Positions 50,162 through 63,851 of a stretch of DNA of 64,000 bases are shown here, piece by piece. Below the pieces are notes generated by a model that saw only the letters and a list, made by a program, of their open reading frames with translations, was not told the origin of the DNA and did not search any database. Origin of the DNA: a virus. Where the stretch lies: positions 1 through 64,000 of IMG/VR virus record IMGVR_UViG_3300030419_006925; one strand, written 5' to 3'. Every line of letters begins with the position of its first letter. Within the stretch, counting starts at the first letter, position 1. The position numbers and the translations under genes were made by a program.

Positions 50162-50923
50162 CTACTCCTTATTGTTTAAATGATTTTTGCAAATAATAAT
50201 TTTGCAATTTGGGTAAACTGAGACTGAGACTCCGGGTCGGAATGGGCGAGTTTCTCGCTCGGGAATCACGAACTCATCGAATCTCTTTTCCAGTTCTTCT
50301 TGTATTTTTTGCCATTCTGGCTGACTAGTGCCATGAAACTCTAATGCAAAGTTTAAGATCTTTTTATCTATATCATGCTTAAAAATATGCGGCAACAGTT
50401 CGTGTTCTCCGCCTTCACAATCCATCTTTAGGAAATCAATGAAATCAATATTATTTTGCTCAATAATCTCCTTAACAGATATTTGTTCTGGCAGATCTCT
50501 TATTTGTTCGGTATCTGCGTCTGCGGAAAATCTTTTTTCGGAAACATATGAATCATTGTTCTCGAAAAGGGCCTTGTGGCCACCAATCGATGTCGTAGAC
50601 TTCGCGAGACTGGCGGCTCTGTTCTCGCCTATGACTGCCATGTGATGTACTTGAATGTTTTCGTGTCCTTTCAATCTTTCTCGGGCGCGGAGATAATTTG
50701 ACTCTTCTATCTCGTATGCTAGAACTATTGATTCGGGATATCCATCACTAGCTAATTTTGCAAACCAGCCGGTGTTGCACCCTATGTCTACAATGAACTT
50801 AGGCTCTCTCTCAAAGTTGCATTTTTTAAAGCGATAATTATCATCCCTATAAGCTTCGCTTGCCATTCCTCGCTCGTCGCTTCTTATGCTTTGATCATTG
50901 TTGTCCCACTCTTGATATCCCAT
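50162..50923 (-). CDS. FkbM-family SAM-dependent methyltransferase
   Basis: 253 residues with a strong AAGGAG site. Residues about 42-60 (FIVDIGCNTGWFAKLASDGY) hold the SAM-binding glycine motif, followed by VLAYEIEESNYLRARERL. FIDFLKMDCEGGEHELLPHI near residues 155-175 is the hallmark of the FkbM family, whose members often O-methylate sugars or polyketides. The last gene of the glycan island in transcription order, it probably methylates the sugar product, although methylation of another target cannot be excluded. A ribosome binding site of its own suggests independent translation. Confidence 0.88.
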   Translation of the reverse strand: MGYQEWDNNDQSIRSDERGMASEAYRDDNYRFKKCNFEREPKFIVDIGCNTGWFAKLASDGYPESIVLAYEIEESNYLRARERLKGHENIQVHHMAVIGENRAASLAKSTTSIGGHKALFENNDSYVSEKRFSADADTEQIRDLPEQISVKEIIEQNNIDFIDFLKMDCEGGEHELLPHIFKHDIDKKILNFALEFHGTSQPEWQKIQEELEKRFDEFVIPERETRPFRPGVSVSVYPNCKIIICKNHLNNKE

Positions 50924-50932
50924 TTGTACTCC

Positions 50933-51184
50933 TTAATTTATATCTGTTTTGACCCATATTCCGGGGAGAGAATCTGCTAGTCTTTTTCCCCAGCCGGGGT
51001 TCGAAGGGTCGGCGGCGTTTCTAATCTGTTTCTCAATTAGAGGCTTGCGATCGACAAAACACCATTTCATCTCTACAATAAGCTCTTTACCATCTTCTGA
51101 GTAATATGCTCTTTGTTCGTCGTGGGGCGCGACATCTGGATTGCCGGCTAAAACATCATCTACCAAGTCTTTAAAATCTGTCAC
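50933..51184 (-). CDS. Small protein of unknown function in the glycan island
   Basis: 83 residues from a GTG start (51184) that overlaps the HAD gene's stop as GTGA, with GGGAG seven bases upstream. The sequence is mixed: an acidic start (FKDLVDDVLAGNPDVAPHDE), a strand pair (ELIVEMKWCFVDRKPLIEKQ) and a Gly/Pro-rich end (PSNPGWGKRLADSLPGIW). One cysteine only, no metal motif, no membrane segment. I do not recognise a family. Coupling to the HAD hydrolase gene suggests they are made together. Confidence 0.6.
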   Translation of the reverse strand: MTDFKDLVDDVLAGNPDVAPHDEQRAYYSEDGKELIVEMKWCFVDRKPLIEKQIRNAADPSNPGWGKRLADSLPGIWVKTDIN

Positions 51185-51486
51185 TCGTTGCTCCCAAAAA
51201 AGTTTTCTGAGTTTATGTTTTTATCGTCTATGAACAAGTCATAAATAGGCTTGCCAAATCTTAATTCATGATATTTTACTCCCCATTGGGCGAACTGCTT
51301 CTCTGTTGTATCTCTCCAGTCGATGCCCGTGCCCGTGCCGCGAGCAGTCCAATATACAATTACATTGCCCTCTTCGAAGAGACTATTAATTTTATCTATG
51401 TTCTTCTTAATTGGTCTTGCATCGGTATAGTCCCTATTCTCTGGTGAATCGCAAATTGTCTCGTCTATATCAACGAAGATGATCAT
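51181..51486 (-). CDS. HAD-type phosphatase, first of two related copies
   Basis: 101 residues, ATG at 51486 overlapping the previous stop as ATGA. FVDIDETICD is HAD motif I with the two catalytic aspartates. VIVYWTARGTG is the motif II strand and Thr, and YDLFIDDKNIN carries the motif III/IV acidic pair. The lysine and the short cap fit small C0-type HADs found in surface-polysaccharide gene clusters. It is clearly related to the protein encoded at 58106-58477 (both have TARG, FxQxxxWGVK, YDLxIDDK and NSEN). It probably removes phosphate from a sugar phosphate made in this island. Confidence 0.82.
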   Translation of the reverse strand: MIIFVDIDETICDSPENRDYTDARPIKKNIDKINSLFEEGNVIVYWTARGTGTGIDWRDTTEKQFAQWGVKYHELRFGKPIYDLFIDDKNINSENFFGSNE

Positions 51487-51848
51487 TTATATACCTCTTC
51501 CTTATCGTAAAAATAGTCTTCCTTGTCGAATGCTGTGGAACACAAAACCAACAAAATATCATTTCCAGTTAGATATTCTTGTTGAGCCCAGACCATCCTA
51601 TCGAGAAAGACTACTTTACCCGGCGTTAAAAATACGGTCTCAATGCCATCTCTGGAATGTAGCTCAACCTTGACTTTCCCCTGAACACAGAAGATGTATT
51701 GTTGATCTTCGTAGTGCCCGTGCTTTCCACGAACTTCGCCCTTGGGTGTGTCAGTAATATAATACATTCTTCTTGGAATAAACTTTAAATCAGTCAATTC
51801 CATATATCTTAAAATTCCAGTTTCTTCGGTTCCATTTTTGGATAACAT
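51483..51848 (-). CDS. FdtA/WxcM-like sugar ketoisomerase (cupin)
   Basis: 121 residues, ATG at 51848. The fold is a single cupin: RGKHGHYEDQQYIFCVQGKV contains the conserved His pair region and the strand that follows, and DGIETVFLTPGKVVFLDRMV is the second cupin half. The end DILLVLCSTAFDKEDYFYDK matches the closing signature of FdtA/QdtA/WxcM-like proteins (LVLAS-x2-YDExDYIRDY). These convert a dTDP-4-keto-6-deoxyhexose to its 3-keto isomer, the step before transamination. The DegT-type aminotransferase two genes upstream would supply the next step. Substrate identity is inferred; no dTDP-glucose synthesis genes are visible here. Confidence 0.82.
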   Translation of the reverse strand: MLSKNGTEETGILRYMELTDLKFIPRRMYYITDTPKGEVRGKHGHYEDQQYIFCVQGKVKVELHSRDGIETVFLTPGKVVFLDRMVWAQQEYLTGNDILLVLCSTAFDKEDYFYDKEEVYK

Positions 51849-51849
51849 A

Positions 51850-52785
51850 CTATTTTTTTCTCCTTAATAAAATTAAATTTGATTTAGGTAGCTGACCTAT
51901 CGGGTACCGCCAGAGATCGTCGAGCCACGGTTTTCTATCTAATACTTCAAATTTCTCTCGCATTTTTACAAAATCATTATAAATTTCTGGTCGCAGTTGC
52001 TTGAATCGTTCGTTAGCCGATGTTGAATTCGGAACGAGTGGGCGACCTTCTCCGGCTCTGTTCTCACCACCATTGTCAAACAAGGTGGTTGTGTCAACGG
52101 TCTCCGGCAACAAGCGAAAATCGAAGACTGCTCGGCCTTGGCCGGGTTTCGTTTTATCCTCATTGGGTTGCCAATGGGTATCCTCAATAATATAAAAGCC
52201 TCCAATTTTTACCAAACTGGCCAAATTAATAAAACTCAACTGTTGGTGGTAAAAAGCATGCGATGCATCATCTATTATGATTTCAAATATCTCTGATGTC
52301 TTATTATACACTTGTTTTAACACTTTCTTAAAGTCTTTATAGCTATCTAAGCTTCCCTGATCTCCTTGAAAGAATCTAAATCTTTCTAAATCAGTATCTG
52401 AGGTTTTTAGCGCATTTATATCGAACCCCCAAATGTCAGCCTTGTGATAGTATTCGTGCCACATTCTTATGGAAGGAAAGTCTTCTATTTTCCTATTCAT
52501 GTTATTCTCGCCATGCTCAGGTCCGCCATTGTTTAGACCAATTTCCAAAATATTAATCTTATCGTGTCGAGAGTATTCAAAATAATGTTCATACAAAAGT
52601 GTAAAGCCGGAACAACATCCGGTTGTGGTGCCCTTGTCGGTTCCAAACTTGTTGGCTAGTTTCGTTAAGGTTAACTTTTGGAAGAAGCTGTTAGTGGGAG
52701 GCATGCCCCACGGGTCGTCATAAGATTCATAAGTTCTGATCGCGGATCCTTCCGAATCATATTCAGTAATCACTTTCTTTCCCAC
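51850..52785 (-). CDS. SAM-dependent O-methyltransferase, macrocin/cephalosporin-hydroxylase type
   Basis: 311 residues from a GTG start overlapping the aminotransferase gene by 16 bases, with AGAGG upstream. LTKLANKFGTDKGTT opens the fold and INILEIGLNNGG is the SAM-binding motif. FEIIIDDASHAFYHQQLSFI and GGFYIIEDTHW are the paired IDDxSH and IEDxH signatures of the metal-dependent MycE/macrocin O-methyltransferase group. Those enzymes methylate hydroxyls on deoxysugars. A stretch of extra residues (GPEHGENNMNRKIEDFPSI) lies between the SAM loop and the next strand. It most likely methylates a sugar of the island; the exact position cannot be read. Confidence 0.85.
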   Translation of the reverse strand: MGKKVITEYDSEGSAIRTYESYDDPWGMPPTNSFFQKLTLTKLANKFGTDKGTTTGCCSGFTLLYEHYFEYSRHDKINILEIGLNNGGPEHGENNMNRKIEDFPSIRMWHEYYHKADIWGFDINALKTSDTDLERFRFFQGDQGSLDSYKDFKKVLKQVYNKTSEIFEIIIDDASHAFYHQQLSFINLASLVKIGGFYIIEDTHWQPNEDKTKPGQGRAVFDFRLLPETVDTTTLFDNGGENRAGEGRPLVPNSTSANERFKQLRPEIYNDFVKMREKFEVLDRKPWLDDLWRYPIGQLPKSNLILLRRKK

Positions 52786-53696
52786 AATACCTCTTTGATT
52801 ACTGTTTCCACCTCTTCATCCGTCATCATTTCGTGATATGGAATGCTAACAGTAGAGTTTGATTCAATGATAGATAGCGGGAGTGGGGTCTCTGTAGTTG
52901 ATTTGTAGCACTCCACGTCGTGAACCGTCCTGTAATGAATACCACATTGAATCCCCCTTTGCTTCATGTTTTCTATAAAATCATCCCTATCGTCAACTCT
53001 CAATCTGTACAGGTGTCGACTTGTGTTGCTTAACCCAAGCGCACTATTGTAGGCCTCTCGAACTTCATCAAAGCGCTTAGCCTTGGCTTCAAGCTTTTCA
53101 AGATTTTTCAAAGCCACATAAGCCTGTATGGAATTCATATACATTTTCCAGCCGGGAAGAACGAACTTTCTCTCCCAACTGTTATCTTCGAAGTTTGTTC
53201 CATATCTTGAGAGTATTTTTAATCTTCTAATCTTCTCTTCGTCATTTGAGACTATCATCCCCCCGTCAATGCTGCCAACAGGCTTGGTTGGATAAAAACT
53301 AAAAATCATCAGGTCTTCATCGTTTGCTTGTTCGGCAAACTGATTTTTATCTAGCTGTTGTGCCGAATCTATGATCTTATAATCCTCAAATTGGTGAAGA
53401 GTGTATGAGTGCCCTACCCAGTTCACATCATCTCTGTATCTTACGTTGTGTCCTGCTGTTAAAATAGCGTTCGGCACTACGGGCGGAATGATCGAAGGGA
53501 TCTCAATTGTTGTTTTTTCTTGTTCTAATAACGTCATGAAAATAGCCATCGTTGCGCTGTGAATCGAACACGCATATTTGGCTCCAACATAAGAAGCTAT
53601 TTCATTTTCCAATTCTTCCACTATTTTATCATTTAATAGAGGACGAAATTGAGATGTGTCAATCACATAATCGTTGACATGCATTAATTTAATCAT
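52770..53696 (-). CDS. DegT/DnrJ/EryC1-type sugar aminotransferase, short form
   Basis: 308 residues, ATG at 53696 overlapping the previous stop as ATGA. VGAKYACSIHSATMAIFMTL is the PLP-domain opening with its Ser/His turn. YKIIDSAQQLDK holds the Asp that pairs with the pyridine ring, and FSFYPTKPVGSIDGGMIV supplies the PLP lysine. The C-terminal domain (GIHYRTVHDVECYK and VSIPYHEMMTDEEVETVI) is also recognisable. The protein is shorter than the usual 370-400 residues, with trimmed loops, but keeps the key residues. It would add an amino group to a keto sugar nucleotide, probably the product of the FdtA-like isomerase. Confidence 0.87.
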   Translation of the reverse strand: MIKLMHVNDYVIDTSQFRPLLNDKIVEELENEIASYVGAKYACSIHSATMAIFMTLLEQEKTTIEIPSIIPPVVPNAILTAGHNVRYRDDVNWVGHSYTLHQFEDYKIIDSAQQLDKNQFAEQANDEDLMIFSFYPTKPVGSIDGGMIVSNDEEKIRRLKILSRYGTNFEDNSWERKFVLPGWKMYMNSIQAYVALKNLEKLEAKAKRFDEVREAYNSALGLSNTSRHLYRLRVDDRDDFIENMKQRGIQCGIHYRTVHDVECYKSTTETPLPLSIIESNSTVSIPYHEMMTDEEVETVIKEVLWERK

Positions 53697-54397
53697 TTTA
53701 TCTCCAAAGGGGGGCTAAATTTTTTTGAGGTGCTGACAGTCCTAGAATACCCAATACTATCTCCTTTACCCCATTTAAAATTATCAGAAGCGATTTCTAT
53801 TTGTTGAATATCAGACATGTAACTACTAATCTGTTTTCTCCACCAAGGAAATTTTTTAACTGTTAGTCTTGCTGGCTCCCCGTGTTTATTGTGTGACTGC
53901 ATATGGTGTATTGCCAAAATCCATCCTTCTTTGGAGACTCTGTTCATTTCTGATAGTACGCGTAATAAATCTTCTTCCGGAATATGCTCTAAGACTAAAA
54001 AAGAGGTTACTATATCAACGGTATTGTCACCTAGTGGTATCTCTGTTGAATCTCCTTCAAAAAAAGTAATCACATCACTGGCGTATGAATCTGTTATTCC
54101 TAGACCTACACTGGCTATATCAATGCCATAGGCTTTTTTTGCACTAAACGAATTGACTGCATCGTAACAAAATTTTCCAGACCCGCACCCAATATCTAAA
54201 ATAACCTTATCCTTAAGATTAAGTCTTTGATTAATTTTTTTATCATTCACAGAATTTGTAAATAAATCATAAAAAGCACTACCATAGTTTCTTACTAATC
54301 CTTTTGGAGCTTTAGTGCCATTTGGCATTACTGTCCAATCGCATCCTTCAGAGTGTAAGTAGCCATCCACAAAACTAGTTTTTAGTTTTTCATTCAT
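53693..54397 (-). CDS. Class I SAM-dependent methyltransferase (UbiE/Methyltransf_11 type)
   Basis: 234 residues, ATG at 54397 in an ATGA overlap with the DUF962-like gene. VILDIGCGSGKFCYDAVNSF is the SAM loop, KKAYGIDIA the acidic ribose-binding strand, and TVDIVTSFLVLEHIPEEDLL the post-II motif typical of UbiE-like enzymes. The C-terminus contains a basic, Trp-bearing stretch (KKFPWWRKQISSY). The target is not evident; a sugar or lipid intermediate in the island is the likely substrate. It is one of three methyltransferases of different families within 4.3 kb. Confidence 0.87.
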   Translation of the reverse strand: MNEKLKTSFVDGYLHSEGCDWTVMPNGTKAPKGLVRNYGSAFYDLFTNSVNDKKINQRLNLKDKVILDIGCGSGKFCYDAVNSFSAKKAYGIDIASVGLGITDSYASDVITFFEGDSTEIPLGDNTVDIVTSFLVLEHIPEEDLLRVLSEMNRVSKEGWILAIHHMQSHNKHGEPARLTVKKFPWWRKQISSYMSDIQQIEIASDNFKWGKGDSIGYSRTVSTSKKFSPPLEIK

Positions 54398-54687
54398 AGC
54401 TTAATTCTTCCCGTTAACATATCCTTAAACATAATCCAGTCACTAATCTTCGCCTTTACGGGATCACTAAATGCTGCTGGTTTATTTTTTTCAAAAAGAA
54501 AGTGGCCAGACCAAGCAAACGGATAGATCACGAATGGTGCCAGCAATAGCGACCACAATTTCATATTGAGTCCCACAATTAAGCACACATAGGATATTGT
54601 AGCCAATTGACCTACGAAATGAAGCCTACGACACCACTTATTTTGATGTAACGTTAAGTAGTGTTTATAGTATTCATCCATTTCCAT
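54394..54687 (-). CDS. Small DUF962/Mpo1-like membrane protein
   Basis: 97 residues from the ATG at 54687, which has GGAG seven bases upstream; a longer frame to 54732 lies inside the epimerase gene and is not preferred. DEYYKHYLTLHQNKWCRRLH and FVGQLATISYVCLIVGLNMK form the first part: a conserved N-terminal helix with a His, then a membrane helix. A second hydrophobic segment follows (LLLAPFVIYPFAWSGHFLFE), with an FEKNKPAAF motif as in DUF962/Mpo1-like proteins. Mpo1 in yeast is a dioxygenase of fatty-acid alpha-oxidation. Whether the phage protein has this activity is unknown; a lipid-linked role in the envelope is a guess. Confidence 0.8.
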   Translation of the reverse strand: MEMDEYYKHYLTLHQNKWCRRLHFVGQLATISYVCLIVGLNMKLWSLLLAPFVIYPFAWSGHFLFEKNKPAAFSDPVKAKISDWIMFKDMLTGRIKL

Positions 54688-55639
54688 CTTCAAGCTCCAT
54701 AAATGTCTGTATGTTATAAAACCTTTTGTCATTTAAGTCTATGTTTCTTTTTTTAACTTCTCGCAATATTTCTCGAATTGATTCTCTCGGGTTGTATCGG
54801 GGTTGAAAATTTAACAACTCCTTAGCTTTCTCGTTTGAAGCCAAATAGTTTCGAACATCTGGCCTGTTCTGTATTTCTACTTCGATGTTTATACCGTTTT
54901 CTGAGAGTTCTTTTTCAACGTCTTCTGCTAGTTTTCCGATGGTGTAGTTTTCTCCGCAAATATTGAACACGCCGGCGATACCATGATCACAAGTAATTGC
55001 CTTCTTGTATGCTTCAGTTACATCTCGAATATCGATTAAGGGGCGCCACAAATTAGGATTATGAACAACTATTTTACCTTGCGTTAGAGCAAACTTGGTC
55101 ATTGTGTTGACCACTAAATCAAATCTCATCCTAGGAGACCAACCGCCCACTGTGCCCTTTCTCATCGAAATGGGTCTGAAGGATTCATCCTGCAGGTTCA
55201 TCAGTGAGTACTCTGCTTGTAGTTTGGAAATACCATATGGATATTGTGGATTGACCGGGCTGTCTTCAGACATAATCTTGTTATCTGTAAATCCATATAC
55301 ACTACACGAACTAGCATACACATAGCGCGGAACTCCAACTTCTTTGCTTATGAAGGCCAAAAATGACGGGGCTGCGGCGTTCTCTATAAAGTTTCTTTTT
55401 GGGCTAAAGTTGGCCATTGGGTCATTGGACAGGCCAGCGAGAAAAACTACTGCGTCGTGTCCTGCGATCTCTTCTCTGGTAAGATCCATTAGGTCTTTGT
55501 GAATCATTCTTACATTTGAATTTAGGTAGTTTCCGAACCAAAACAAATCGACTGCAGTTACTTGATGGCCCTCAGTTGCCATCTCGTTGCACAACCTAGT
55601 TCCCACATAACCTCCACCACCAGCAATTAACACCTTCAT
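54674..55639 (-). CDS. NAD-dependent sugar epimerase/dehydratase (extended SDR)
   Basis: 321 residues, ATG at 55639 directly after the preceding stop. The NAD loop is GGGGYVGTRL at residues 7-16. The catalytic Ser region is YASSCSVYG near 108-116, and YPYGISKLQAEY near 132 supplies Tyr and Lys of the YxxxK motif. The C-terminal half (WRPLIDIRDVTEAYKKAI and GVFNICGENYTIGKLAEDVE) is typical of nucleotide-sugar epimerases and dehydratases. It would epimerise or reduce a sugar nucleotide. Its exact product cannot be told from sequence alone. Its 3' end overlaps the start of the DUF962-like gene by 14 bases. Confidence 0.9.
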   Translation of the reverse strand: MKVLIAGGGGYVGTRLCNEMATEGHQVTAVDLFWFGNYLNSNVRMIHKDLMDLTREEIAGHDAVVFLAGLSNDPMANFSPKRNFIENAAAPSFLAFISKEVGVPRYVYASSCSVYGFTDNKIMSEDSPVNPQYPYGISKLQAEYSLMNLQDESFRPISMRKGTVGGWSPRMRFDLVVNTMTKFALTQGKIVVHNPNLWRPLIDIRDVTEAYKKAITCDHGIAGVFNICGENYTIGKLAEDVEKELSENGINIEVEIQNRPDVRNYLASNEKAKELLNFQPRYNPRESIREILREVKKRNIDLNDKRFYNIQTFMELEDGNG

Positions 55640-56428
55640 CTACAGACACTCTTCCCTAAATTGATCATAATATTTGTACCAAATTTTAATTGCAGCATTC
55701 TCATTCATAAGAGTAGCAAACCTGATGCAGTTTTTGTTGTTATCATCTCCGTCCCATATCGGACCCCATGGTTTGCGGCGGCCGCTGTAGTGAATTATCT
55801 TTATTAGTTCTTTGTTGTTTTCATAATCTTTTGGATCGCCCTTGCCGCCGGCGCCAAAATTTTGAAAATTATAGGCTTCAGACACGGTGCCCACATCCGG
55901 ATTATTCGGACTGAACATATGCTGACAGGTGACCTGATCTCCATCGGGCCTGTGTTTTATCCCTGTGCTTACAACCAATTCCACCATCTTGTCATAGCAT
56001 TCGCCGGTTAGGTATTTCTCTCCTGCAATCAGCAATCCAAGATTGGGATATTTCCAAATAATCTCAGTCTCATCTTCTATAAGATTAGAAAAGTCTCCGG
56101 TGCACAACATGTCGGCATCTAAATAGACGCTCCTTTTGTATCCAATTTGAGCAAAAGTCTCAAACGAAAGATAAACATCATAATTTCCAACACCATAAAT
56201 TGTTCGTGGAATATGCTCATAAAAACTAGAATCTCTCGGAGGATCAAAAATCGTATCCTTGTGTGCCTTGCGAATGAGATTCATGCTCTTTTCATTCAAA
56301 TTATTATAGGGCACCTTTATATCACATTCATCAAAAACTCTCAAATTCTTTTTTAATGAGTGAATCAGTACCGCGGCCGCTAAAGCAAAATCATCAGAAG
56401 CGGGTATGCAAATAGCATATTTTTTCAT
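55640..56428 (-). CDS. Glycosyltransferase, GT8-like
   Basis: 262 residues, ATG at 56428. The start KKYAICIPASDDFALAAAVL is the nucleotide-sugar-binding strand and loop. KRSVYLDADMLCTGDFSNLI near residue 100 contains the DxD metal-binding motif (YLDADM) of GT8-type enzymes such as glycogenin and LOS galactosyltransferases. IKIIHYSGRRKPWGPIW near residue 220 corresponds to the conserved C-terminal HxxGxxKPW motif (here HYSGRRKPW). The enzyme would transfer a sugar to the glycan under assembly. Donor and acceptor are unknown. A stop-start junction joins it to the epimerase gene downstream. Confidence 0.85.
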   Translation of the reverse strand: MKKYAICIPASDDFALAAAVLIHSLKKNLRVFDECDIKVPYNNLNEKSMNLIRKAHKDTIFDPPRDSSFYEHIPRTIYGVGNYDVYLSFETFAQIGYKRSVYLDADMLCTGDFSNLIEDETEIIWKYPNLGLLIAGEKYLTGECYDKMVELVVSTGIKHRPDGDQVTCQHMFSPNNPDVGTVSEAYNFQNFGAGGKGDPKDYENNKELIKIIHYSGRRKPWGPIWDGDDNNKNCIRFATLMNENAAIKIWYKYYDQFREECL

Positions 56429-56431
56429 ATC

Positions 56432-57283
56432 TTATACCTTATTTAAATAATCGGCCAAAGGCCTTTTGTGTTCCGGGAGGCTCTCGAAATCCGATAACTT
56501 CATACGTCCTCCAAATGTCTCTCTCCATTCTGTGGGATGTATCCCATAGTATACCGTTAGTATTGTGCGCTCGCCTTGTTCAACCTTTGTTCCCTTGTGG
56601 AACCCGTTCGTATTACCCAGTATAACATCTCCGACGTCACCTTTGCATCTAATAATCCTATCTTTTCCATAAATCGATTCGATATCATTGTGTGTCCAGC
56701 GATATTTTGAGTTCCAACCATTAAATTTTTGTAGATGACTTCCGTGGACATAAGTAAAGGGACCGTTGGCGTCTGTTACATCATTGAGATAAAAGAAAAA
56801 TTTTAAAAGTCTTGGGCTATCTTTGTCGCAATGAAACAAGGTTGTTTGACCATTGCCCGGAATATTTGATTCACTTATCGTAGTAGCCTTGCTTTTTCTT
56901 AGCTGGACATTATTGATTGCGGGGAGGCAATTAAAATAGCTCTTTGCTATTTCTACAACCTCATCATCAAACGCAACATTAAAGACCGAATCACACGTTA
57001 AAAGAGGGTGTGCAACCTGTTCTGTGTAGAAATCATTGTACTGTAATTCTCCCCGAGACTTAATTAGCTCAAACTCTTCCTTAACTGCGGCTAATCTTAT
57101 AGGATCTATAAACCCTTTTATACTCGAATACCCATTTAAATTTACCTCTTCCGCCGCGTGCTTGTACGTATCGCCAATATCAACCGGGTATTTCTCCCTA
57201 CGCTCCTGAATGCATGCGGCGTATCTTTCCACTTCAGATTGACCTCCCCATGCGCATGTCGGATTTATCTTAATTTGTATCAC
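56432..57283 (-). CDS. PhyH-family Fe(II)/2-oxoglutarate dioxygenase
   Basis: 283 residues from a GTG start overlapping the previous stop as GTGA. LFHCDKDSPRLLKFFFYLND near residue 150 holds the HxD iron-binding pair, and DVILGNTNGFHKGTKVEQG near 228 holds the distal His. ERTILTVYYGIHP supplies the Arg that binds 2-oxoglutarate. The overall pattern is that of phytanoyl-CoA dioxygenase-like proteins, which hydroxylate small molecules and sugars. Placed among sugar genes, it may hydroxylate or oxidise a sugar or lipid part. A second oxygenase of the same superfamily lies at 63036-63851. Confidence 0.85.
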   Translation of the reverse strand: MIQIKINPTCAWGGQSEVERYAACIQERREKYPVDIGDTYKHAAEEVNLNGYSSIKGFIDPIRLAAVKEEFELIKSRGELQYNDFYTEQVAHPLLTCDSVFNVAFDDEVVEIAKSYFNCLPAINNVQLRKSKATTISESNIPGNGQTTLFHCDKDSPRLLKFFFYLNDVTDANGPFTYVHGSHLQKFNGWNSKYRWTHNDIESIYGKDRIIRCKGDVGDVILGNTNGFHKGTKVEQGERTILTVYYGIHPTEWRETFGGRMKLSDFESLPEHKRPLADYLNKV

Positions 57284-58113
57284 TTTCTACATCCAAAGTA
57301 TTTTCTTCTAACTTCTGGAAAATCATCAAACATGTGAAATTCAAACTTAAGTTTTTCCAAAAGGTCCAATTGTTGTAGATGATATTTCACTAATTGATGA
57401 TTTGAAATACGGCCGCTGGCGTCAGTTCTGCAATTTTCTGGCTTATTGTATTCGTCTAAATGATCATACAGCGAGAAGAAGTCTGATGAATTCTTAGAAT
57501 TCGCAAAAAACCAGAGGTCTAAAAACCCCTCATCATTGATTGGATAACCCTTGGTGGTTCTCTTAAGCTCTTTGAGCATTGGATGCCGGGCCTGTATTAA
57601 ATCATATAATGGGCCCCGACCTCCTTTGAATAAATCGGTTCCATTTCGATCAACAACCGCAGACCACTTGCCGGCATAAAAATATTCATTATCAAAATTG
57701 TCAAAAATCACATCAGTCTCAAATGCCAAATCAAATCGAGTTGTCATAACGTAGTCATATTTAAAATCATTTTCTTGTTCATGTTTTTGTCTAAGCTCGT
57801 TGACTATTTTGTTAGAATACCACCTACTATAGTGGTTATTTTTGCGTGTATCCTCCCCCTTTACATAATCTGGTATATCGAAGTATATCTGTTCTTCGAA
57901 AAGGCTCTTGGTGGGATTATAAAGCTCCAAAGTCTTATCTTCCAATTCTTTGTCCCAGCAATGCACAAAAACATCAACATCATTTTTGTCAAGTATGTGT
58001 CTTTGGTAGTGTTCGTGCCCTTTTATGAGTACTCTAGGATCTGATTCGAAGAAACCTGATTTTCCTTGTATATTGCCTATTTTTCCACTAAGACATAGTG
58101 CTACTTTACTCAC
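57280..58113 (-). CDS. Glycosyltransferase-like protein of uncertain family
   Basis: 277 residues from a GTG start, overlapping the end of the HAD gene by eight bases. The start SKVALCLSGKIGNIQG resembles the opening strand and loop of several surface-glycan glycosyltransferases. VDVFVHCWDKEL and YDYVMTTRFDLAFETDVIFD (with its RFDL acidic motif) match a pattern seen in capsule and LPS cluster proteins of unknown donor type. The C-terminal half has no recognisable motif. A transferase role is inferred from these motifs and the setting, not from a defined family. It overlaps the PhyH gene downstream as GTGA. Confidence 0.68.
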   Translation of the reverse strand: MSKVALCLSGKIGNIQGKSGFFESDPRVLIKGHEHYQRHILDKNDVDVFVHCWDKELEDKTLELYNPTKSLFEEQIYFDIPDYVKGEDTRKNNHYSRWYSNKIVNELRQKHEQENDFKYDYVMTTRFDLAFETDVIFDNFDNEYFYAGKWSAVVDRNGTDLFKGGRGPLYDLIQARHPMLKELKRTTKGYPINDEGFLDLWFFANSKNSSDFFSLYDHLDEYNKPENCRTDASGRISNHQLVKYHLQQLDLLEKLKFEFHMFDDFPEVRRKYFGCRK

Positions 58114-58477
58114 TTAAAAACTCCTTGATATCTGATAATTTGTTTACGTTTTCGGAATTTAGCGCCTTGTCATCAATCAACAGATCATAATGAATCTTGC
58201 CCATGACCAATTGATCAAACTTGACTCCCCAGTTTTTTAACTGCTCAAAGGTTATATCATATAAATTTGAATATATATCATTTACATTACCAGCGAAACT
58301 GGTCATGCCGCGGGCTGTGTACACTATAATTTTATTGCCCTTTGCGTGACATTCGTTCACTATATCAATCATATCCTTGTTTGGTTCGCATGTGTGATAT
58401 TTTTTAATTTTTCCTTTTTCAGATGTCCTGTAACACAAGACATCATCCAAATCAAATGCAATCACCTTATTGTGCAT
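58106..58477 (-). CDS. HAD-type phosphatase, second of two related copies
   Basis: 123 residues, ATG at 58477, overlapping the GatZ-like gene by 16 bases. AFDLDDVLCY is motif I, IIVYTARGMTS motif II, and YDLLIDDKALN motif III/IV. It aligns with the 101-residue HAD at 51181-51486 along almost its full length, including FEQLKNWGVK against FAQWGVK, but has a longer insertion between motif I and II. Such small HADs accompany nucleotidyltransferases in capsule clusters. The neighbouring kinase/nucleotidyltransferase suggests a sugar-phosphate substrate. Confidence 0.83.
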   Translation of the reverse strand: MHNKVIAFDLDDVLCYRTSEKGKIKKYHTCEPNKDMIDIVNECHAKGNKIIVYTARGMTSFAGNVNDIYSNLYDITFEQLKNWGVKFDQLVMGKIHYDLLIDDKALNSENVNKLSDIKEFLSE

Positions 58478-59457
58478 AAAATTTCCTCTATTCTTTGATT
58501 GATTTTTCTTTTAATCTTTGAGTCTATGTTTGGGTATTTCCCTTTTATCTCTTGAAACTCGGGGTTTGCAAAAACATAATGGCCCGATGTCCTTATTATA
58601 GCATACTTTCTTATTTCGTTTACGCTAAAGAGCGCTTTTGCAGGAAGCCATTTTTTCCACTTGTCTGATTCATAACAAAGAGAATACAGTTTTTGGAACG
58701 ATTTTTCATCAAAATGATTTAAAATCTCTTCAATCACACACTGTGTTTCTATTGCTCCAAATTCGGGAGCAATATTTATAGCGTCTAATCCCAAATCAAA
58801 TCTGTTTTTAATCTCCTCTGGGGATAGATAATCTCCATTGTGTTCTTTCGACAAGACACCAAAGTTTTTACAGGTCTCAATCATTTTTGAACAACGCTCT
58901 TCGTCGTATTCGCCTATATTTCGATTTCCCTCAATTCTGGTGCCACCTTGTATAACCGCATATTTAATCTGCGCAAAGGCGGGGCCTAGTATTTTTTTCA
59001 AATCAAATAAGATCTTTTCAAATTCTCTGTGTGAGTATTTTCGAATTGCCTGTTCTGTGCCAATTTCATATAGGCAATTCGAATTTACGCGGTTGCAGGC
59101 TTTGATTAATTCGGCGGTTGCGTTAATTCCGTCTTCTATATTAGTATATTCCTTCCAAGGATCAATATGTATCAGATCAAAACAGGCTTTTGCATCAGCA
59201 ATTAGTGATTGTTTTCCATCATCCATAGTCTTTCCTTGGGCTGGGCCGGCGTGATCTCTTTCTATAATCACCTTGTCTGTTCTATTTCTAACATAATCAA
59301 CAAATTCGGCTGTGGTCCAATTGTTTACGTAGCCGCCGTCATGTTCTATTTGGCGGCGAGATGGGATTAGTCCGATTATATCATCAGAATTGTTGCATTT
59401 TTCAATGACCACATCTACTATATTCTTGCTCATTGGTCCAATAAAAAGTTTAGCCAC
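58462..59457 (-). CDS. GatZ/KbaZ-like protein (tagatose-bisphosphate aldolase family)
   Basis: 331 residues from a GTG start, overlapping the nucleotidyltransferase gene by eight bases. IGLIPSRRQIEHDGGYVNNW and VIIERDHAGPAQGK near residues 60-75 match the GatZ/KbaZ pattern (NQxGGYTGxTP, then GGDHLGPNPW). FDLIHIDPWKE corresponds to the IHLDASM strand. A short C-terminal helical part ends the protein, which is shorter than the 420-residue bacterial GatZ. Bacterial GatZ/KbaZ are non-catalytic partners of class II aldolases. Related genes occur beside HAD phosphatases and sugar nucleotidyltransferases in surface-sugar clusters, as here. The reaction it supports is not known. Confidence 0.72.
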   Translation of the reverse strand: MAKLFIGPMSKNIVDVVIEKCNNSDDIIGLIPSRRQIEHDGGYVNNWTTAEFVDYVRNRTDKVIIERDHAGPAQGKTMDDGKQSLIADAKACFDLIHIDPWKEYTNIEDGINATAELIKACNRVNSNCLYEIGTEQAIRKYSHREFEKILFDLKKILGPAFAQIKYAVIQGGTRIEGNRNIGEYDEERCSKMIETCKNFGVLSKEHNGDYLSPEEIKNRFDLGLDAINIAPEFGAIETQCVIEEILNHFDEKSFQKLYSLCYESDKWKKWLPAKALFSVNEIRKYAIIRTSGHYVFANPEFQEIKGKYPNIDSKIKRKINQRIEEILCTIR

Positions 59458-61036
59458 GATTAGCCTCCAATAAATTATATAAACTTTGCTTGCCTAAGTA
59501 AAACAACATCTTGGAATAAGGATAATGATGCAGTGGTGCAATATTTAAAAAGATGAGCGATGTCAATAATTTAACTTTGTAGATATCTAGTTCATTATCA
59601 TGTAAAAATTTTATAAAATCGGCTTCATTCTCAACAAGAGAGTGTTTTCTATAAAAATCATATCCTATCACGTTGTCCGTCTGCTTAACATTATAACACT
59701 CTTTGTTAATAAGTTCATGTGAAACAATCAATCCGTGCAACAATTTTGCCAAATCATAATAAAGATCGCCATATGCTTTGATTCCTGCGAAATTTTGGCG
59801 CCAATCTAAAAGACAGAATTCTCCAGTTTCAGCAACCAAGATATTTTCAAAATGCAAATCCCCATGCATTCTCACTGGTGTTCCCATGGAGAGGTTTTCC
59901 CAATCTACTTTGCTAAGTAAGGCTTTAACGGGAGGGATCTTTTGTCCATTGATTGTTTCAACAAGATCCTGCTCCGAAAAACGATTAAAATAAAGTTCCA
60001 CCCTTTTTTCCGTCTTATCTTTATAAAATTTATTACAAGCACTCTTGAATTTTTTTTGTTCCTGCTCGTCTAATGCTTGTTCAGTCCAGAAATCTTCCAA
60101 AAACGATAACAGTCTTTTGAACGTATTTTTATTTGTAACCTTTGATAGTGTTTGACCTGTTATCATCCTATATGAATACATGTTCTTTCGGAAGTCTAAG
60201 ATTTCCGGCACATATCCCTCAAGGCGCTTGGCTCGGTCGATGCGATCTAGGATAAAGTCTGGATCACTATTGTATTTAATGGCGCGGCCGTTAACAAACC
60301 ATATGGCTTCATTTGGCTTTTCCAGAATCTCCGGCGCATTTTTAGATTTTACGATTTCTCTGGCCGCCTTTAAGCTTTCTAAATTGCCTGTGTCGTACCA
60401 AGTAAACTTCTTAGCCTCTATCAGAGAGTTTCGTTTTACCATTTCTCGGAGGGCGTACGATTCACCGATACGAATTGAACCGTACTTCTTACCAGATTCC
60501 ATCGAGTTCCAAAATTCTTTATAATCCTTGATCCCGGCCAAGCCAATATAGGGCTTTGTGTCGTATGATAAGATTTCATCCTTCTCACATATCCTTTCAA
60601 CACAGCTTGACTTTGATACCTTAAAGGAGCGATAGTTCTGATTGTTTTCGACTTCAGCATATCCAACCCAATTTGTTGTTGGTTCGGGTACTTCCTCTAA
60701 AATCACTGTATCATTGGGGCAAAAAATGAACGGGCACTGTAGGTGCTCTTTGCATTCCAGTATCGTTAGACCAAGACCGGAGCCACTACCGCAATAGTTC
60801 TTTATTTTGACGCATGTAATTTTTCTGTCTGGGTGGGCCATCTCAAGATAATCGCGCAGCAAGTCACCTTTGTGCCCTAGGGCTATAACTATTTCTATCT
60901 CTTTTGGAAACTTCTCAATAACATGAGAGATAACCGGCTTATTGTCGAGAGATACGAGGGCTTTGTTGAGATTCTTGCTAAAATCTCCCAGTCGTGTGCC
61001 CAAGCCGGCTGATGGTATTAGCACTTTATAATTCAT
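59450..61036 (-). CDS. Fused sugar-phosphate nucleotidyltransferase and APH-type kinase
   Basis: 528 residues, ATG at 61036 in an ATGA overlap with the sulfotransferase gene. Residues 1-235 are a nucleotidyltransferase: LIPSAGLGTRLGDFSKNLNK with the GxGxRL-x-K loop, then IFCPNDTVIL. Residues about 250-520 are an aminoglycoside-phosphotransferase/choline-kinase-like domain: MHGDLHFENILV near 389 (catalytic Asp in HGDLH) and CLLDWRQNFAG near 409 (metal-binding Asp). The combined protein can both phosphorylate a sugar (or amino alcohol) and activate the product as a nucleotide. Such fusions are known from bacterial capsule clusters. It is followed by GatZ-like and HAD genes, so the three probably form one sub-pathway. 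Confidence 0.85.
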   Translation of the reverse strand: MNYKVLIPSAGLGTRLGDFSKNLNKALVSLDNKPVISHVIEKFPKEIEIVIALGHKGDLLRDYLEMAHPDRKITCVKIKNYCGSGSGLGLTILECKEHLQCPFIFCPNDTVILEEVPEPTTNWVGYAEVENNQNYRSFKVSKSSCVERICEKDEILSYDTKPYIGLAGIKDYKEFWNSMESGKKYGSIRIGESYALREMVKRNSLIEAKKFTWYDTGNLESLKAAREIVKSKNAPEILEKPNEAIWFVNGRAIKYNSDPDFILDRIDRAKRLEGYVPEILDFRKNMYSYRMITGQTLSKVTNKNTFKRLLSFLEDFWTEQALDEQEQKKFKSACNKFYKDKTEKRVELYFNRFSEQDLVETINGQKIPPVKALLSKVDWENLSMGTPVRMHGDLHFENILVAETGEFCLLDWRQNFAGIKAYGDLYYDLAKLLHGLIVSHELINKECYNVKQTDNVIGYDFYRKHSLVENEADFIKFLHDNELDIYKVKLLTSLIFLNIAPLHHYPYSKMLFYLGKQSLYNLLEANRG

Positions 61037-61920
61037 ACTATTGTGATCCCTGCATAATCATCTTTATCATATCCGAAGTTGTCAAAATCTTCTTTATAAA
61101 ATTCATAAATCTTATTTGCTGTTTCTTGGGTCATTGCTCTTGACAGTTTTTGGCTCTCCTTGAAAGATGCATTATTTCTACCGAGAGATAACGGCTGCCG
61201 GTTGATTACCTCTTCCACAAAACATATTCCTATTTCGTTTTCTAATCTCTTCCAATCGTTTTCAAAATTTTCAAATCTACCAACAAAATCAACATTATGA
61301 TGCTTGGGAAGAAAGAAAGACTGATTTTTAATGTGGTTATCTTTAAACGTGTTCGTGTATACTTGTTCTACAAATGAATCAAAAACTAAAGCACCCTTTG
61401 ATGCTGTCTCCATGGGATCAGAATCAAAAGCACGAAACATCTTATAAGCAGAAAATAGCCTGTCATAAGGATTTCTCACAAAACCAAATTTGAAGTAATT
61501 TCGAAAAGATCTCTCGCCGGTTATCGGCGGGGCATCCGACGCGCGGGTGCCAGATGGCTTCAATTGAAGGCTCGGGGCGCGCTCTGCATTCATGCGAGCC
61601 TCTTGGCTTTTCCAATATTCCCACTTAAGAGTTGTCAAATATTTTAAATTCTTGACGGCGTCTTGTGGGTTTTTTTCAAGCCACGACATTAAGCTTGGAA
61701 TTTTCAACATTTCCTTTATAGATGAAGAAGCTGACTTCGGATTCAAATAACATGCTATCTTGTTCTCGTGATTAAGAAATAAGGTTTCCCACGGGCCGAG
61801 AGCGGGATGTTTCAATACTTCTCTTTGGAGGATCCTACCCCATGGCGAATATTGAGTACGCTCTTCTATAATAAAAGTGTAGTCTTCTGAATATCTCTTT
61901 TCTGTTTTCCACTCTGGCAT
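61033..61920 (-). CDS. Sulfotransferase, first of two paralogues
   Basis: 295 residues, ATG at 61920 overlapping the previous stop as TAATG. CYLNPKSASSSIKEMLKI near residues 55-72 is the 5'-phosphosulfate-binding loop (PKxAxxS). FKFGFVRNPYDRLFSAYKMF near 143-160 is the 3'-phosphate-binding motif (RNPxxRxxSxY), as in eukaryotic-type carbohydrate sulfotransferases. The enzyme would move sulfate from PAPS to a sugar hydroxyl. It has a longer N-terminal and a longer middle region than its neighbour at 61920-62681. The two share a nearly identical 3' end (see the repeat at 61071-61134). PAPS synthesis genes are not visible in the window, so the donor must come from the host or elsewhere. Confidence 0.88.
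   Translation of the reverse strand: MPEWKTEKRYSEDYTFIIEERTQYSPWGRILQREVLKHPALGPWETLFLNHENKIACYLNPKSASSSIKEMLKIPSLMSWLEKNPQDAVKNLKYLTTLKWEYWKSQEARMNAERAPSLQLKPSGTRASDAPPITGERSFRNYFKFGFVRNPYDRLFSAYKMFRAFDSDPMETASKGALVFDSFVEQVYTNTFKDNHIKNQSFFLPKHHNVDFVGRFENFENDWKRLENEIGICFVEEVINRQPLSLGRNNASFKESQKLSRAMTQETANKIYEFYKEDFDNFGYDKDDYAGITIV
61071..61134 (-). repeat. Copy A of a 64-base direct repeat at the ends of the two sulfotransferase genes
   Basis: This segment matches 61955-62018 at 60 of 64 positions without gaps. It encodes the stretch from MTQETANKIYE to FDNFGY in the first sulfotransferase. The rest of the two genes is far more diverged, so this end was duplicated or converted recently, or is kept by selection. 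Confidence 0.9.
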
Positions 61921-62681
61921 TATACTACAAACCCTCCGTAATCGGCCCTATTGTATCCGAAGTTGTCAAAATCTTCTCTATAGATTTCATAAATCTTGTT
62001 TGCTGTTTCTTGGGTCATCACTTTTTGTGGTATTTGTTCTTTTTTCAACTTTGCGATCGCCGAACCATAGGGTTCTGGTTGTTTTTTGGTTGCTTCTTTC
62101 ATAAAGCGTATTCCTATGATTTTCTGCAATTTATGCCAATCGTCTGAGAATCTTTCAAGCTTTCCGATAAAGTCGATAGATTTTGGAATATGCCTACTTT
62201 GTCGATTAATGTGAGAATCAAGTTCGACTATTGGGCGCGTTGTGCGCCAGCCAGACCACTCTTGAGCAGAGAGTTCGATGCCCGGTGAAAGGTTAACATG
62301 ACCATTGGGGGGACCCTCAAGGAAGGGTCTGAACGATGTCTGGCCACAATACAGGCTGTTTATAAAATTATCAAAATTGGTTTTGCTAATTTCATTCCAT
62401 GGAAATCTATTCTTCCATGAAGGGCAAAACTTAAACATCTTATATGCTGAAAATATCCTCTCATATGGATTTCTTACAAATCCGAATCTAAACGGTCTAA
62501 AATGTTTTAAATTTTCTGCGATCGCTGATCGATCTATTGCTATAAAATATTCGTTGTCGGTGCGCCACTGCCAGTGTGTGTCCGTCTCCAACACCTCCCT
62601 CATTGATGTAGAAGCCACTTTAGGATTCAGGTAGACATACAAGGCATATTTATATTCTCTGTGGGTTATCTCGAAATCCAT
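61920..62681 (-). CDS. Sulfotransferase, second of two paralogues
   Basis: 253 residues from the ATG at 62681, with AAGGTGA upstream; a start at 62702 lies inside the cupin gene and has a site that is too close. YVYLNPKVASTSMREVLE near residues 14-31 is the phosphosulfate loop and FRFGFVRNPYERIFSAYKMF near 62-82 the 3'-phosphate motif. IDFIGKLERFSDDWHKLQKI matches the VDFVGRFENFENDWKRLENE segment in the other copy. The enzyme would sulfate a sugar; two copies suggest two positions or two acceptors. It ends with the same MTQETANKIYE...DFDNFGY element as its partner. Confidence 0.88.
   Translation of the reverse strand: MDFEITHREYKYALYVYLNPKVASTSMREVLETDTHWQWRTDNEYFIAIDRSAIAENLKHFRPFRFGFVRNPYERIFSAYKMFKFCPSWKNRFPWNEISKTNFDNFINSLYCGQTSFRPFLEGPPNGHVNLSPGIELSAQEWSGWRTTRPIVELDSHINRQSRHIPKSIDFIGKLERFSDDWHKLQKIIGIRFMKEATKKQPEPYGSAIAKLKKEQIPQKVMTQETANKIYEIYREDFDNFGYNRADYGGFVV
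61955..62018 (-). repeat. Copy B of the 64-base direct repeat
   Basis: Matches 61071-61134 at 60 of 64 positions, 884 bases away in the same orientation. It lies in the same reading frame at the end of the second sulfotransferase gene. Confidence 0.9.
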
Positions 62682-62685
62682 GCGC

Positions 62686-63027
62686 TCACCTTCGATAATC
62701 ATCCTCTAATCTGACGATATCATCTTCTCCAAAATAGGTTCCACATTGAACCTCAATAAACACCAAATCATCATCACCGGTGTTCTTAATTCTGTGGCTG
62801 GCTCCGATTGGGATGTGTACGTGCTCGCCTACTGAAAGTTCTAGGTCCTCCCCGTTGAGGGTGACTGTTGCGTTGCCCTGCACGATAACCCAATGTTCGC
62901 TACGTTTATGGTGGTATTGGTAACTTGGACGGTGGCCGGGCTTGATAATCAACCTCTTTACTTTGCAATATTCCTCGTCTAGTAGGTTTTCAAATGTGCC
63001 CCATGGGCGCTCTTCAGTATAATTCAT
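62686..63027 (-). CDS. Cupin related to the isomerase domain of mannose-6-phosphate isomerase type II
   Basis: 113 residues from the ATG at 63027, with AAGGA six bases upstream; a longer frame to 63054 overlaps the oxygenase gene. ERPWGTFENLLDEEYCKVKR, IIKPGHRPSYQYHHKRSEHW and LSVGEHVHIPIGASHRIKNT follow the PWG...H-x-H-R-x-E-H-W and H-x-I-P-x-G-x-x-H pattern of the C-terminal domain of ManC/AlgA-type enzymes. The stand-alone form would isomerise mannose 6-phosphate and fructose 6-phosphate, giving a precursor for GDP-mannose or derived sugars. No GDP-mannose pyrophosphorylase domain is fused here. Its start follows the oxygenase stop by eight bases. Confidence 0.83.
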   Translation of the reverse strand: MNYTEERPWGTFENLLDEEYCKVKRLIIKPGHRPSYQYHHKRSEHWVIVQGNATVTLNGEDLELSVGEHVHIPIGASHRIKNTGDDDLVFIEVQCGTYFGEDDIVRLEDDYRR

Positions 63028-63035
63028 TGTAGTCC

Positions 63036-63851
63036 TTAGTGTCTTGCGCTCCAAGCCAACGTTGGATCCGGATTTACATACCCGGGTACCTCATAACTCG
63101 TTGTCCACTCGGGGCTAATGTATCGTGGTGGTTTTTCTATTGTTGGTTTAACGCGTATGTTAACAACATCTCTATATCCCTCTATAATGGGATTAACCCT
63201 GTGAACTGCATTATTGATAAATGATATAGCCGTTCCCTTAGAACCTATGACCTTGTTTGCGTTAAATCCCTCTTTCAGTAATTTTTCTACTTGTGGACCA
63301 ACTCTGGAATTGTTGGGCGCCGGGTACCAATGAGACGGGCCGAGGCGGGTACATTGACCCAAGATTCCTTTATCATTTGGTGCCATCAAATATTCGAATG
63401 GAGAGTTGTCCAAAGTAACGTCATTTAAATAAATCAATGTTTTGATAACTTCATTTGGATTATTATCATAATGCCACTCATATGATGATACCCTCTTATC
63501 TAAAGGTAGAGTCCTGTATATGTAAACCTTGTCAACATATAGATTACAGTAATACTTTGTCTTTTCTAGATAAGGTATTATAATATTTGATAATTTCGTT
63601 AATTCTTCAGTAAATTTCCATATGTTAGTGTGCTTTATTAGCACTCCATCGTCATTCGAGTCTGTCATTGAATCAAAATCTCTTTTTGTTTTTTGAGACA
63701 GTGCTTCAACCATGTCGCGATATTCCGAAGTAAATTTATCTATCGGAAGCATAATCACAGGATTGCCATAAAATCTTTCGTGCTCAAATTTACTTTGATT
63801 TGTTAAAGCATAATTTTCACGACAAAGCTTATAGTATTCATCATAATTCAT
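63036..63851 (-). CDS. Fe(II)/2-oxoglutarate oxygenase-like protein
   Basis: 271 residues with an AGAGGAA site before the ATG at 63851. SSYEWHYDNNPNEVIKTLIY near residues 122-141 carries the HxD iron ligands, with LNDVTLDNSPFEYL as the following strands. GTAISFINNAVHRVNPIIEG near 205-222 carries the distal His, and YRDVVNIRVKP holds the Arg that would bind 2-oxoglutarate. The fold class is the PhyH/2OG-Fe(II) oxygenase superfamily. The substrate is unknown; its place at the head of the glycan genes suggests a sugar or lipid. It differs clearly from the PhyH protein at 56432-57283 but uses the same chemistry. Confidence 0.78.
   Translation of the reverse strand: MNYDEYYKLCRENYALTNQSKFEHERFYGNPVIMLPIDKFTSEYRDMVEALSQKTKRDFDSMTDSNDDGVLIKHTNIWKFTEELTKLSNIIIPYLEKTKYYCNLYVDKVYIYRTLPLDKRVSSYEWHYDNNPNEVIKTLIYLNDVTLDNSPFEYLMAPNDKGILGQCTRLGPSHWYPAPNNSRVGPQVEKLLKEGFNANKVIGSKGTAISFINNAVHRVNPIIEGYRDVVNIRVKPTIEKPPRYISPEWTTSYEVPGYVNPDPTLAWSARH

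Follow-up and report, generated by a model that had tools for sequence, protein, structure and literature searches.

The 64,000-nucleotide window analysed here (positions 1 to 64,000 of the IMG/VR virus record IMGVR_UViG_3300030419_006925, which is 104,181 bases long) carries two adjacent sulfotransferase genes, A and B, that share a nearly identical 64-base tract close to their 3' ends. Sequence comparison gives good support to the view that A and B arose long ago by tandem duplication. The tract is best explained, with modest confidence, by a later exchange of a short stretch of DNA between the 3' ends of the two genes, to which conservation of the encoded C-terminal element contributes. The record belongs to a phage, since it encodes recognisable baseplate wedge, endolysin-like, primase, RuvC-like and SbcC-like proteins.

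The sulfotransferase gene pair

Genes A (61033..61920, 295 amino acids) and B (61920..62702, 260 amino acids) are open reading frames arranged head to tail on the minus strand. The ATG start codon of A overlaps the stop codon of B by one nucleotide, and the stop codon of A overlaps the ATG of the next gene by four. Both proteins match the Pfam family PF03567 (Sulfotransfer_2) over nearly the whole domain, with expectation values (E) of 9.2e-21 for A and 4.8e-16 for B and scores of 75.5 and 60.1 bits, respectively, against a curated cut-off of 22. No other PF03567 gene occurs in the 104,181-base record, nor was a match to Sulfotransfer_3 found there. Both also match part of the profile of PHROG 3347 (E 1.2e-15 for A and 2.8e-11 for B); this profile is annotated as galactose-3-O-sulfotransferase, which is not evidence for the acceptor.

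The two motifs that bind 3'-phosphoadenosine 5'-phosphosulfate (PAPS), a lysine loop of the PKxAxxS type and a 3' phosphate motif of the RNPxxRxxS type, are present in both proteins, as NPKSASSS and RNPYDRLFS in A and as NPKVASTS and RNPYERIFS in B. The preliminary description of this DNA, made from the sequence alone, had recognised the enzymes by these motifs, and the Pfam assignment agrees with it. In A, the segments LNPKSASSS (61720..61746, minus strand, residues 59-67) and VRNPYDRLFS (61450..61479, minus strand, residues 148-157) are what we take to be the 5'-PSB-like loop and the 3'-PB-like motif. In a 44-row alignment, K62 of A is conserved at 90% or more, and R149, P151 and S157 are invariant.

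The family PF03567 includes the heparan sulfate 2-O and 6-O and other carbohydrate sulfotransferases, which A and B resemble in their domain and PAPS-loop motifs and, tentatively for A, in the predicted fold. The identity to the HS6ST and HS2ST structures that A matches (see below) is low (14-22%), and A and B each have a GC-rich insertion of their own.

A and B share 46% amino-acid identity over their aligned residues. Their relationship was placed in a set built from 50 phage loci, from which ten multi-copy records were searched whole, giving 53 sulfotransferase genes including A and B. In the tree of these 53 genes A and B are sisters when the C-terminal tail is included (support 100/99), and they remain so when it is left out (support 96 in the Shimodaira-Hasegawa-like approximate likelihood ratio test, SH-aLRT). 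The tandem duplication that had first been proposed is thus borne out.

The shared tract and its codons

The A copy of the tract lies at 61071..61134 (codons 263-284, MTQETANKIYEFYKEDFDNFGY) and the B copy at 61955..62018 (codons 229-250, MTQETANKIYEIYREDFDNFGY), both on the minus strand. Upon realignment the two copies are identical at 60 of 64 bases, as originally noticed, and in whole codons they differ at 5 of 66 bases. The tract is indeed near the 3' end of each gene, but it is the penultimate segment and not the very end, as had been thought. It is embedded in a wider repeat of 105 nucleotides with 81% identity (61048-61152 and 61932-62036). With up to three mismatches allowed, a 20-base core of the tract occurs exactly twice in the window (0 of 100 shuffles), and no third copy of the tract exists in the 104,181-base record. 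The region of the RNPY motif forms a second repeat at the DNA level, 60 nucleotides long and 83% identical; the same codon is used there at 9 of 16 identical residues, which is ordinary synonymous divergence.

The tract stands out from the remainder of the genes in its codons. Where A and B have the same residue, Met and Trp excepted, the same codon is used at 17 of 19 sites in the tract and at 39 of 76 elsewhere (Fisher P 0.0018). The codon tests were made on two alignments, with 95 and 83 such sites, and for this reason the count outside the tract is 39 of 76 in one and 34 of 64 in the other. The nonsynonymous (dN) and synonymous (dS) divergences are 0.04 and 0.37 in the tract, the latter corresponding to 3.0 differences in 10.3 synonymous sites. 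Outside it, dN is 0.69 and dS is 2.23, which is saturated, and every block of 25 codons has a synonymous difference of at least 0.53. The strong divergence of the rest of the genes is thereby confirmed, and synonymous divergence, checked by codon alignment, is not uniform along them.

Several expectations were compared with this observation. Simulation from codon usage reached the observed base identity of the tract in 52 of 200,000 runs. With amino-acid-specific expectations taken from the 53 genes, 10.4 of the 19 codons would be the same, where 17 were seen (P 0.001). A plain scan for a segment of low divergence gave a P value of 0.03. Among columns that are variable across the rest of the family, A and B agree in residue at 14 of 16 within the tract, as against 34 of 141 outside it (P ~1e-6), and in codon at 13 of 16 as against 17 of 141 (P ~1e-8; 0 of 5,000 permutations). 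This agreement excludes a family-wide constraint as the whole cause, leaving possible a constraint private to the A-B pair. In the variable-column tests of pairs, those with fewer than 60 variable columns or fewer than five identical codons were excluded.

Comparison with other phage sulfotransferases

Within the genomes of the comparison set there are 152 sulfotransferase pairs, 150 of which are less than 50% identical. The best 64-base window among these 150 belongs to A-B, with 60 identical bases; no other pair exceeds 52. The tail, codon and clustering tests excluded pairs with fewer than 80 aligned codons or more than 60% identity. For 42 other pairs having at least 15 identical tail residues, the share of same codons has a median of 0.53 and a maximum of 0.87, and that of A-B is 0.89. 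Five of 522 pairs, A-B included, reach at least 0.89 (a rounded cut-off); the other four have short tails of 8-10 sites and an equal or higher share.

A single pair scores above A-B. It consists of two genes, g1 and g4, that are 73% identical and belong to a four-gene array at locus L045 of contig G001. These genes show no differences in 87 bases of the first 29 codons, 136 in 429 bases of the middle and one in 111 bases of the last 37 codons. In the same three segments g4 differs from its ortholog in another phage at 10 of 87, 50 of 429 and 11 of 111 bases. The paralogs are thus closer to each other than the orthologs at the ends and farther apart in the middle, showing recombination after the two phages had split. 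Conversion of the ends and replacement of the middle would each account for the pattern and, assembly error aside, these sequence comparisons clearly indicate that arrays of this kind undergo such recombination.

Tandem arrays in other IMG/VR records (L045/G001, L039/G002, L061/G003 and L014/G004) resemble A and B in having neighbouring PF03567 paralogs, once four in a row, and the L045 pair has mosaic ends. The arrays differ in that they are not closely related to A and B in sequence, and the L045 pair shares both ends, whereas A and B share only the 3' end. The statement in the preliminary description that such enzymes are uncommon in phages does not hold, given the 50 loci and a single 105,904-base contig with 11 PF03567 matches, 10 of them above the curated cut-off. 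Two contigs of ~106 and ~110 kb, G001 (L045, L069-L074) and G002 (L039, L075-L080), have 11 and 10 PF03567 matches, respectively, and one of them has the four genes in a row.

Significant clustering of identical codons was found in 26 of 139 pairs within phages and in 119 of 1000 pairs between phages, a modest excess (Fisher P 0.03). A general hotspot of 3'-end conversion in phage sulfotransferases was considered and rejected, because the pairs between phages also cluster at the 3' end.

The C-terminal element

The C-terminal motif Y..DF..FGY is conserved throughout the family, with D in 94%, F in 92% and Y in 89% of 66 distinct phage rows. The selection on the C-terminal element that had been offered as one explanation of the tract is therefore real at the protein level. 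High protein identity is expected in such a family feature, and part of the tract match is accounted for by protein constraint. The exact string EDFDNFGY occurs in B and in three other proteins that are 28-46% identical to B; two of the four came from patterns containing that motif, so that the count is biased.

The structure of A was modelled with the 44-row alignment. The mean predicted local distance difference test score (pLDDT) is 69.6, rising to 92-97 over residues 261-290. In the model, the tract is predicted to form two helices, residues 265-274 and 276-282. The best structural alignment is with the heparan sulfate 6-O-sulfotransferase HS6ST (5t03_B; Z 8.9, near the tool's middling level, with 148 aligned residues and a root-mean-square deviation, rmsd, of 3.4). 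SULT1C3, 3-O-sulfotransferase 5 and the heparan sulfate 2-O-sulfotransferase HS2ST have Z values of 8.0-8.1; for HS2ST (4ndz_C) Z is 8.0, with 149 aligned residues and an rmsd of 3.5. All 50 matches listed by the structural aligner are sulfotransferases. These small differences in Z give no firm separation of carbohydrate from cytosolic sulfotransferases. Foldseek gave weak E-values with the same model (best 0.013), and a sequence profile search with A3 matched a mouse sulfotransferase (5x2b) and HS6ST chains.

Origin of the tract

Gene conversion between tandem duplicates is a general process, in which paralogs resemble each other in patches of lowered synonymous divergence. In the sequence of events that would best fit the A-B pair, the gene for an ancestral PAPS-dependent carbohydrate sulfotransferase was duplicated in tandem and the copies diverged. 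After the split, homologous recombination, by gene conversion or an equivalent crossover, would have copied a stretch of ~64 nucleotides from one of the two genes into its neighbour, and the copies would since have come to differ at a few bases (5 of 66 in whole codons). Protein constraint on the two-helix element would keep A and B alike at this place, which may both provide a start site for recombination and mask part of its trace. The RuvC-like resolvase and the SbcC-like protein encoded by the record are counted in favour of recombination. The A-B case departs from the general process in having a very short tract and, after correction, modest statistical support.

Some results weigh against such an exchange. 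Because the tract was chosen for its likeness, a scan of the whole alignment is the fairer test, and a scan restricted to synonymous differences, with amino-acid-specific expectations, gave a P value of 0.125, the best segment being the tract itself. The tract offers only about ten synonymous sites, and its significance varies with the null model. Clustering at the 3' end is found in 82 of the 119 significant pairs between phages and in 17 of the 26 within phages, showing that C-terminal protein conservation alone yields part of such a pattern. Searches of viral_contigs, phages and genome_contigs yielded nothing closely related to A or B by which the event could be dated or polarised; in the phage search B had no match at E 1e-5, and A had four weak ones at E up to 1.

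The main rival account ascribes the tract to purifying selection acting at the protein level on the two C-terminal helices, combined with codon agreement by chance and codon bias, with no recombination after the duplication. The family-wide conservation of the motif speaks for this account, as do the strict scan, the clustering between phages and the high chance of codon agreement for E, K, F, Y and D in these phages (0.56-0.71). It is nevertheless the less likely account, since the same codons in the tract exceed the amino-acid-specific expectation, the identity extends to family-variable residues and codons, and pairs with equally conserved tails mostly share about half of their codons. The two explanations originally offered as alternatives, conversion of the 3' ends and selection on the C-terminal element, thus both contribute; the low dS of the tract supports conversion, which the strict scan leaves as probable only. 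Among the papers listed in a literature search of limited coverage, none dealt, by its title or the opening of its abstract, with gene conversion in phage sulfotransferases.

It is very unlikely that the tract is an element acting at the nucleotide level, for example by folding as RNA or by coupling its translation to that of the downstream gene. Both copies stop exactly 35 nucleotides ahead of the next start codon, as such a signal might, but this spacing is equal because the tails are nearly equal in length. The two RNA copies fold no better than shuffled sequences (z +0.67 and +0.95), Rfam has no match in the window, and no third copy precedes any other gene of the record; an RNA element was rejected on these grounds. 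It is hardly credible that assembly has joined two related sequences into a chimera here, even though the sequence is an IMG/VR-type virus record and does not come from an isolate. Assembly is known to be misled by identical tracts, which bears mainly on the perfect tracts of L045; in the window the two copies have 4 mismatches in 64 bases, neither reading frame is interrupted and the overlaps between genes are preserved. A short exchange after an old duplication remains the preferred explanation of the A-B tract.

Composition and insertions

A GC-rich segment of A (61513..61612, minus strand) is mostly absent from B, and another, at a different place in B (62233..62332, minus strand), is mostly absent from A. 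Each appears as a gap in the alignment and is present once in the record. In 60-base windows they reach a GC content of 0.65 (A) and 0.63 (B) and have hairpin potential. The segment of A contains a perfect palindrome, with an arm pair of the GCCTTCAATTGAAGGC type, which has no exact match in viral_contigs. Composition lends no support to a recent acquisition of A and B from a foreign source: their GC content, overall and at third codon positions (GC3), is like that of their neighbours. The two GCGATCGC sites of the 64-kb window, where 0.6 are expected, both lie in gene B (62053-62060 and 62518-62525); GCGATCGC is presumably the cyanobacterial HIP1, and the observation is a lead only. Among the plasmid matches listed for A (15 of 20 records), the best by E-value is in a glycan cluster of a Gloeothece plasmid (29.6%). 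B has three weak matches, in Sinorhizobium.

The glycan-synthesis island

Genes A and B lie in a glycan-synthesis island, the part of which within the window (50162..63851, minus strand) encodes FkbM and other methyltransferases, a DegT aminotransferase, an epimerase, GT8, PhyH, a cupin and the sulfotransferases. The cupin, of the mannose-6-phosphate isomerase C-terminal type (PF01050, E 3.7e-34), is at 62686..63054 on the minus strand. The downstream neighbour of A (59450..61036, minus strand) is assigned by Pfam as nucleotidyltransferase-like with an APH-like kinase. Beyond the window (L064:1864-11343, or 63864-73343 of the record) the island continues with two NeuB genes, CTP_transf_3 and three group-1 glycosyltransferases. 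Judging from these genes, its product is probably a phage-encoded, nonulosonate-containing, sulfated glycan. An Mpo1-like gene (2-hydroxy fatty acid dioxygenase family; 54394-54732, E 7.1e-29) also lies within the island. Elsewhere in the window, a single open reading frame of 3,574 amino acids extends over 24344-35068.

No member of the adenosine 5'-phosphosulfate (APS) kinase or PAPS reductase families is present in the record, so PAPS would come from the host. Pfam assignment, the glycan genes nearby and the structural matches suggest that A and B probably sulfate a phage-directed surface glycan. Each enzyme would transfer a sulfate group from PAPS made by the host to a hydroxyl on a sugar of the glycan whose synthesis the adjacent genes direct. 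Since the middles of A and B differ, the two may act on different acceptor positions.

Implications

Enzymes of the PF03567 family, a kind already known, are present in multiple copies in some uncultured phages. For recombination between paralogous sulfotransferase genes of one phage there is a likely case, A-B, and a clear one, that of L045/G001. As a speculation that is unlikely to hold, tandem sulfotransferase arrays in phage glycan islands might be a diversification device, in which conserved ends serve as recombination handles while the middles that determine acceptor specificity are exchanged or homogenised. If so, the glycan that the phage encodes would change in its pattern of sulfation, and A-B and g1-g4 of L045/G001 would be two snapshots of this process. 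Sulfated, possibly nonulosonate-bearing glycans made by phages would bear on how virions are dressed or how the host surface is remodelled.

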